From positions 1 through 64,000 of the forward strand of contig NZ_SJPE01000010.1 in the NCBI RefSeq assembly GCF_004329815.1: a stretch of 64,000 bases of DNA, in the 5' to 3' direction. The notes beneath the pieces were generated by a model, which worked only from the letters and a program-made list of their open reading frames with translations, ran no database searches and was not told the DNA's origin. The position numbers and the translations under genes were made by a program. How positions within the stretch are numbered: the first letter of the stretch is position 1; each line of letters starts with the position of its first letter. The stretch comes from Flavobacterium silvisoli (GTDB lineage: Bacteria > Bacteroidota > Bacteroidia > Flavobacteriales > Flavobacteriaceae). Below, piece after piece: positions 13,471-13,524 of the stretch.

Positions 13471-13524
13471 TGTAGTTGTAGTTGTGTTGTTGTATTTGTT
13501 GTTGTAAAAAACGAGGCAAAAATA
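13471..13524 (-). promoter_or_regulatory. pyrG promoter -7 box and G-free CAAC-rich leader
   Basis: On the minus strand the -7 box TATTTTTG (13524-13517) is followed by CCTCG, six T (13511-13506) and then 35 bases made of repeated ACAAC/TACAAC words without any G, directly up to the ATG at 13470. No -33 TTG is seen at the usual spacing. Confidence 0.6.

Follow-up and report, generated by a model that had tools for sequence, protein, structure and literature searches.

A T-run start and an ACAAC-repeat leader before pyrG in Flavobacterium: two conserved modules and a candidate nucleotide-synthesis regulon

Introduction

Between the promoter and the start codon of pyrG, the gene for CTP synthase, Flavobacterium silvisoli carries a leader that opens with a run of T and then continues up to the ATG as a string of ACAAC words without a single G. 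What is such a leader for? Is it one device that senses nucleotides at the point where transcription begins, as a preliminary description of the locus had proposed, or do two different things stand here side by side? We have looked at this question within the window (the whole stretch of 64,000 nucleotides that was analysed), across the rest of its genome, and among its relatives. Flavobacterium is a common environmental genus that initiates translation without Shine–Dalgarno sequences.

Methods

The pyrG leaders came from 33 genomes of the same genus, the window's own genome (G000), and 80 further contig records, 114 in all; 10 duplicates were removed, leaving 104 distinct leaders, of which 99 have a box, and 3 of the 36 same-genus genomes were left out because they offered no usable pyrG start. 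Outside the genus, we examined pyrG in 30 of the 118 family genomes that have it, together with 20 loci of other families.

Two patterns were used for the repeats. The strict pattern, three ACAAC words with gaps of 0–8 bases, was searched over the whole of G000 and also in 12 other Flavobacterium genomes, with 7-base tandem repeats excluded from the latter; in these 12, coordinates were used to identify the pyrG, carA, and pyrB sites, and a prs site was kept despite a tandem-like flag. The double pattern, ACAAC-N0-8-ACAAC-N0-15-ATG, was searched over the whole of G000; for two relatives (G009 and G012), G-free matches and automatic loci were considered, minus the G-free match G009 C17:91.

NCBIfam or Pfam matches support the gene names pyrD, purB, purF, purD, rpe, purM, purH, purC, purL, folD, carB (G000), purA, pnp, prs, fbp, and pyrB; purF, purM, purL, and folD scored below the curated cut-offs, and purF and purL are incomplete in the stretch searched. 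pyrR has a phosphoribosyltransferase domain match and takes its name from its place before pyrB. From their N-terminal sequences, we take other genes to be purK, gcvP, guaA (G012), carB (G009 and G012), purH (G119), ilvE, rnpA, ruvC, hemF, and lrp.

Results

The predicted start of the pyrG RNA

The layout before pyrG is the one first described: the −7 box TATTTTTG, then CCTC (13513–13516, minus strand), G, six T, 35 G-free ACAAC-rich bases, and the ATG (Table 1). Where would transcription begin? In an excerpt of PMC9723704, promoters of F. psychrophilum have a TAnnTTTG box at −12 to −5, and in an excerpt of PMC6847099, the spacing between start and box in F. johnsoniae is taken as 4 or 5 nt; given these distances, the pyrG RNA is predicted to begin GUUUUUUACAAC or one base later, so that +1 is the G or the T that follows it and the leader is 42 or 41 bases long. 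On this prediction, at least three T would stand among the first transcribed bases, the T6 lying at +2 to +7.

Table 1. Features of the pyrG and carA loci in the window
Feature	Position	Strand	Basis
pyrG, CTP synthase	11854..13470	minus	NCBIfam PRK05380, 840.7 bits vs cut-off 308
pyrG G-free ACAAC-repeat leader tract	13471..13505	minus	35 bases up to ATG; 6 ACAAC words in last 45 bases
T6 run at +2 to +7 of pyrG, candidate slippage site	13506..13511	minus	T-run of at least 5 in 82/99 genus leaders
predicted +1 G of pyrG	13512	minus	published box-to-start spacing; G in 94/99 boxed genus leaders
−7 box TATTTTTG, pyrG promoter	13517..13524	minus	fits TAnnTTTG; box in 99/104 distinct genus leaders
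carA, carbamoyl-phosphate synthase small subunit	19902..21023	minus	TIGR01368, 464.6 bits vs cut-off 307
carA G-free ACAAC-repeat leader, without T-run	21024..21065	minus	box, CTCA, 42 G-free bases; 4 ACAAC words in last 45
−7 box TATTTTTG, carA promoter	21070..21077	minus	coordinates counted from leader length

Conservation of the T-run start

The start region is kept within the genus. Among the 99 boxed pyrG leaders of Flavobacterium, +1 is G in 94, and the T-run from +2 has seven T in 10, six in 60, five in 12, four in 10, and three in 3, being absent in 4; where at least five T are present (82 leaders), the base that follows is A in 76. The expectation that the T-run would be conserved among relatives is therefore borne out within the genus, and a T-run beginning at +2 agrees with the published distance from box to start. 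Six leaders (L043, L050, L112, L113, L114, and L123) carry a hairpin-like GGACAACT..AGTTGTCC and an A run right before the ATG, and in these, the A run could pair with the 5′ GUUUUUU. Five records titled as Nitrotoga, Bifidobacterium, Sphingobacterium, and Chitinophaga MAGs (L099, L117, L121, L132, and L170) have a Flavobacterium-like pyrG (87–93% protein identity); these records are likely mislabelled or mixed bins.

Is such a start peculiar to pyrG? In 461 kb of the window's own genome, 93 leaders of 15–100 nt bear a box, and a T-run of at least six from +2 occurs in just two of them, those of pyrG and sdhC. Across the genus, sdhC has at least five T from +2 in 20/26 boxed leaders (A at +1 in 18 of these 20), and the other control families have none (asd, 0/29; mnmA, 0/25; carA, 0/27). 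The box-T-run start is thus not unique to pyrG: at least two promoters have a genuinely conserved Pu-U6-A start, and the sequence does not of itself imply a nucleotide-sensing role confined to pyrG. The idea that the start region is an independent nucleotide sensor is partly supported by the conservation of the T-run in the genus; the same layout before sdhC, a gene with no obvious tie to UTP, counts against it. The sdhC leaders (L056, L251–L280) show a conserved A-T5..7-A start directly after the box and, in most rows, GGTTGTAGT starting 25 bases upstream of it.

Two further candidates were set aside. A regulon defined by the T-run was rejected, TAnnTTTG-N4-R-T6 being found 5 times in the own genome and 7 times in a backwards control; of the 5, only pyrG and sdhC lie at a gene start, as judged by eye, the contexts of the other three being assessed from sequence. 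We also rejected a near-palindromic CAATT..AATTG in the −27 to −13 spacer, similar across the pyrG rows by eye, as an operator; since AT-rich motifs at −18 and −28 are general in F. johnsoniae promoters (in an excerpt of PMC6847099), this spacer is treated as promoter.

Beyond the genus, the picture changes. Searched for by regular expression, the box-Pu-T-run start is absent from all 30 pyrG loci examined in other genera of the family and present in 1 of the 20 loci of other families. The 30 (L061–L090) begin instead with TCCCGTA (12), TGCGTT (8), AAACCTAA (4), or something else (6); the 20 comprise one Pu-T5, two AAACCTAA, and 17 with none of these. The CCG at the predicted pyrG start of other genera recalls the CTP-sensitive start of E. 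coli pyrC.

The ACAAC tract against its background

A leader poor in G is in itself ordinary in this genome, where the median G fraction among the 93 boxed leaders is 0.083 and 5 of the 53 box-bearing leaders of at least 25 nt (in the same 461 kb) have no G beyond +1; complete freedom from G would on its own be only mildly unusual. The words are another matter. Among 372 ORF starts of the own genome, ACAAC is missing from the last 45 bases in 328 and occurs there at least twice in 9, and the two richest, pyrG (6) and carA (4), both lie inside the window. Within the genus, at least two words occur in 85/103 pyrG leaders and at least one in 99/103, mostly spaced by 3, 5, 6, or 7 bases and without helical phasing. 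Strict freedom from G fares less well: 37/99 leaders have no G beyond +1, and 68/99 have at most one. Of the G-free ACAAC tract whose conservation was at issue, it is the ACAAC words that are kept and not the complete absence of G.

The tract also precedes many purine and pyrimidine genes that have no T-run at +2, carA of the window among them, which makes it a separate, shared element; the suggestion that it forms part of a start-site sensor is accordingly not supported. In the window, guaA appears nearly leaderless (17926–17939, minus strand, TACTTTTG-CGC-ATG), and because its first codons read CAACACAAC, its ACAAC word may fall within the coding start.

ACAAC leaders across the genome

Which genes, then, carry the tract? 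The strict pattern has 26 matches in G000, and 8 of these are leader sites: pyrG, carA, carB, pyrB, purA, pnp, a porin gene, and hemF, the last being of the 7-base tandem kind. The double pattern has 62 matches with 54 distinct ends, every one of which was classified, and 17 are clear leaders. Nine of the 17 precede enzymes of de novo nucleotide synthesis (purF, purD, purK, purL, purA, carA, carB, pyrB, and pyrG), and the remaining eight precede pyrR, folD, fbp, rnpA, ilvE, porin, hemF, and ruvC, of which fbp, rnpA, ilvE, and porin have no obvious nucleotide role. The gene pyrR stands before pyrB, and both carry the tract; at ilvE, the preceding frame runs on into the words. A doubtful class of nine holds pyrD (recognized by homology to a gene of G012), one unnamed short gene, and seven matches within longer frames.

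The hypergeometric probability of at least 7 nucleotide genes among 17 runs from 1.6e-10 (26 such genes allowed) to 8.3e-8 (60 allowed) in 2,332 genes, where both gene numbers are estimates and the count of 7 omits pyrR as well as pyrG and carA, the source of the motif. Counted without regard to position, the double pattern is hardly exceptional against its backwards control (62 vs 47 matches in G000, 44 vs 56 in G009, and 39 vs 38 in G012); with no overall excess in the last two genomes and a small one in the first, most matches are due to chance within genes, and only position at gene starts sets the leaders apart.

Tandem repeats of the 7-base units ACAACCA and ACAACCG are scattered in genes and spacers of G000, G021, and G026 (many in G021) and are distinct in kind from the leader tract. 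An antisense RNA rich in GUUGU was considered as a partner and rejected: no free one was found among the strict-pattern sites of the own genome, all of whose nonleader sites lie within ORFs on one strand or the other.

The tract in relatives

In the 12 other Flavobacterium genomes, the strict pattern gives 26 nontandem leader sites: pnp 9, pyrG 6, purF 2, carA 2, pyrB 2, carB 1, prs 1, folD 1, and two unnamed (L398 and L415). Pfam gave no match for L398, nor for L461, the look-alike of L415 in G009; the gene that L415 (G011) and L461 (G009) share, beginning MK.IIDQLKECIRSHP... and having an ACAAC leader in both, is possibly a regulator. With the double pattern, G009 and G012 contribute purB, purC, purD, purH, purM, guaA, pyrD, and rpe, along with an lrp-like gene in G012 that has no obvious nucleotide role.

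The element is patchy. Any ACAAC in the last 45 bases is present in only 11/28 carA and 10/28 pyrB leaders of the genus, as against 2/89 in the control families sdhC, asd, and mnmA together, from which we infer that it has been gained and lost; strict-pattern leaders come down to pnp alone in G010 and to none in G002. Two genomes without a full carA match (G001 and G014) keep ACAAC words before pyrG. A single case, G016 (L017), has no carA over the cut-off and no pyrB match, and its pyrG leader lacks both the T-run and the ACAAC tract.

Outside the genus, ACAAC leaders occur before pyrG and purH in G119 and before pnp in G073; for G119 and G066, the triple-pattern results cover the matches listed and the automatic loci. 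In 400 kb of G160, a genome of the TCCCGTA type, TTTGCATCCCGTA stands before pyrG only, and two ACAAC words occur at 1 of 325 ORF starts. Since the other genera mostly do without the tract, both at the 30 pyrG loci and in G160, the ACAAC gene set is mainly confined to Flavobacterium.

RNA or DNA?

The position of the repeats bears on the level at which they might act. In pyrD, purM, purC, purL (G000), and rpe (G009), they start on the predicted +1 or only a few bases from it, and they adjoin the start codon without a visible box in pyrB, carB, purA, purF, and folD of G000; at all 8 strict leader sites of G000, ACAAC is in the sense orientation. Proximity to the start codon, irregular spacing of the words, and sense orientation together are more easily reconciled with single-stranded RNA read in several copies than with a DNA operator.

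In minimum-energy folds of 11/11 pnp leaders, the tract is predicted to lie in a hairpin loop whose stem varies in sequence; against this, RNAalifold predicts no pairs on the pnp alignment. The pnp leaders (L360, L369, L370, L372, L374, L384, L389, L396, L404, L411, and L414) have an invariant GTTTTTCATTGG followed by the ACAAC tract. The modelled hairpin is possibly a site of PNPase autoregulation. An Rfam scan of six loci (pyrG, carA, pyrB, purF, and pnp leaders; E up to 0.5) gave no match above the gathering score for any of the leaders themselves; two S15-Flavobacteria leaders in the pnp loci passed, and one rimP and two Flavo-1 matches fell below that score.

Discussion

What do we make of a leader that seems to do two things at once? 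We lean, on comparison of sequences, toward the view that it consists of two independent conserved modules and that the ACAAC tract marks an RNA-level regulon of nucleotide synthesis. The positions of the modules, their conservation, and the gene set can be read from the sequences directly; the level of action, the existence of a factor, and the signal sensed are things that we infer. One module would be the box-N4-G-U6-A start region, on which RNA polymerase could stutter. The other would be the G-poor ACAAC-repeat tract that reaches the start codon, the marker of a putative Flavobacterium regulon comprising many de novo purine and pyrimidine genes, the feeders prs, rpe, and folD, and also pnp. 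With its copies of a short word and its flexible spacing, the tract most likely acts as single-stranded RNA near the start codon, its words being bound by a putative trans-acting factor or perhaps recognized by the ribosome itself under some form of regulation, and the translation or stability of the mRNAs that bear it would be set jointly by nucleotide supply. PNPase and PyrR, whose own genes carry the tract, are candidate factors only as guesses.

Could the T-run account for the locus by itself? On this reading, transcription at G-U6 would be reiterative and sensitive to UTP, with high UTP leading to extra U, abortion of the transcript, and less pyrG when pyrimidines are plentiful. A +1 G and a T-run of at least five at +2 in so many pyrG leaders (94/99 and 82/99) would be expected of it, the E. 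coli carAB P1 promoter does start GUUUGC and stutter (in an excerpt of PMC6245113), and carA of G009 and G011 has five T directly before ACAAC near +1. Yet sdhC, with no obvious link to UTP, has the same conserved start (20/26 boxed leaders), a T-run of five from +2 is found in none of the 27 boxed carA leaders, and such a start is missing from all 30 pyrG loci examined in other genera of the family; we think UTP-sensitive slippage plausible but somewhat unlikely here. It would cover the T-run only and could possibly coexist with an ACAAC leader regulon. Plain enhancement of translation, in which an unstructured adenine-rich leader suits the preference for A at −3, −6, −12, and −13 without any regulator, is a serious rival because the pyrG leader meets the published preferences: A at those positions and low structure go with higher translation in Flavobacterium (in an excerpt of PMC6847099), and all four are A in the pyrG leader. 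Such enhancement would leave unexplained both the C of each ACAAC word and the concentration of the repeats on nucleotide genes. Moreover, none of the 9 ORF starts (of 372) with at least two words resembles that of a ribosomal protein gene, despite a cluster of such genes in the window, and we regard the explanation as unlikely.

A DNA operator would have a repressor sit on ACAAC/GTTGT repeats shortly after the start, where it would block transcription. The five genes whose repeats lie at or near the predicted +1 (pyrD, purM, purC, purL, and rpe) are what one would hope to see; the sense orientation at the strict leader sites, the lack of helical phasing in pyrG, the tracts beside start codons with no visible promoter, and the predicted display of the tract in a hairpin loop in pnp all point the other way, and we consider an operator quite improbable. 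There is least to be said for a simple repeat or an effect of base composition without function: the 7-base class does litter some genomes, the hemF and ruvC leaders included, but neither the enrichment of the nucleotide gene set nor the conservation of ACAAC before pyrG over 104 distinct leaders is what such a repeat would give, and we hold it to be very improbable indeed.

If we return to the two-module reading with a regulon and allow ourselves to extend it, the supply of purines and pyrimidines in Flavobacterium, from the PRPP and one-carbon feeders to IMP, UMP, and CTP, with PNPase, might be governed through an ACAAC RNA code and a putative sensor, with UTP-sensitive slippage added at pyrG. 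This wider picture we offer tentatively and would not bet on. Titles and abstract openings of open-licence papers made no mention of either a nucleotide regulon or an ACAAC leader in Bacteroidota, and the sequences suggest a shared control of nucleotide synthesis that had not been described before. Two whole pathways, in other words, appear to have one very simple RNA signal in common; if this is true, it would provide a testable handle on nucleotide sensing and a candidate RNA-binding regulator of a new, repeat-reading kind. Existing 5′-end reads, for their part, would allow slippage in Bacteroidota to be tested at pyrG and sdhC, where the Pu-U6-A start is conserved.

How does all this compare with systems already known? 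The Kozak-like adenine context of F. johnsoniae is alike in its A at −3, −6, −12, and −13 and its unstructured leaders, but it is a genome-wide trend that, as given in an excerpt of PMC6847099, specifies neither ACAAC repeats nor nucleotide genes. The reiterative promoters of E. coli (pyrBI, codBA, upp, and carAB P1) share with Flavobacterium pyrG a T run at the predicted start and a gene related to pyrimidines, and carAB P1 (GUUUGC in an excerpt of PMC6245113) shares even the order of G and then a U-run, the predicted Flavobacterium start being GUUUUUU. Unlike them, the Flavobacterium promoter has a different box, a T6 where carAB has T3, CTP synthase as its target, and the same start at sdhC, and slippage here is a candidate.

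Bacillus pyrG has a GGGC start with CTP-sensitive G-slippage and a terminator in its leader. The gene is the same, and control in the start region is what has been proposed for both; the Flavobacterium start, however, is GUUUUUUA within a start region GTTTTTTA, with no GGGC, and the predicted 42-base leader, with its single G at +1, has a 35-base tract devoid of the G needed for such a hairpin. PyrR attenuation finds an echo in pyrR standing before pyrB, both with the tract, whereas the Flavobacterium set includes purine genes. There is, finally, the trp leader of Bacillus, where the ring protein TRAP meets multiple GAG/UAG words. Several copies of a short unpaired word before biosynthetic genes are common to both, pyrG having six ACAAC in a G-free stretch, but in Flavobacterium, the word is ACAAC with no GAG or UAG, the spacing is variable, the binding protein is putative, and the genes belong to two whole pathways rather than one.
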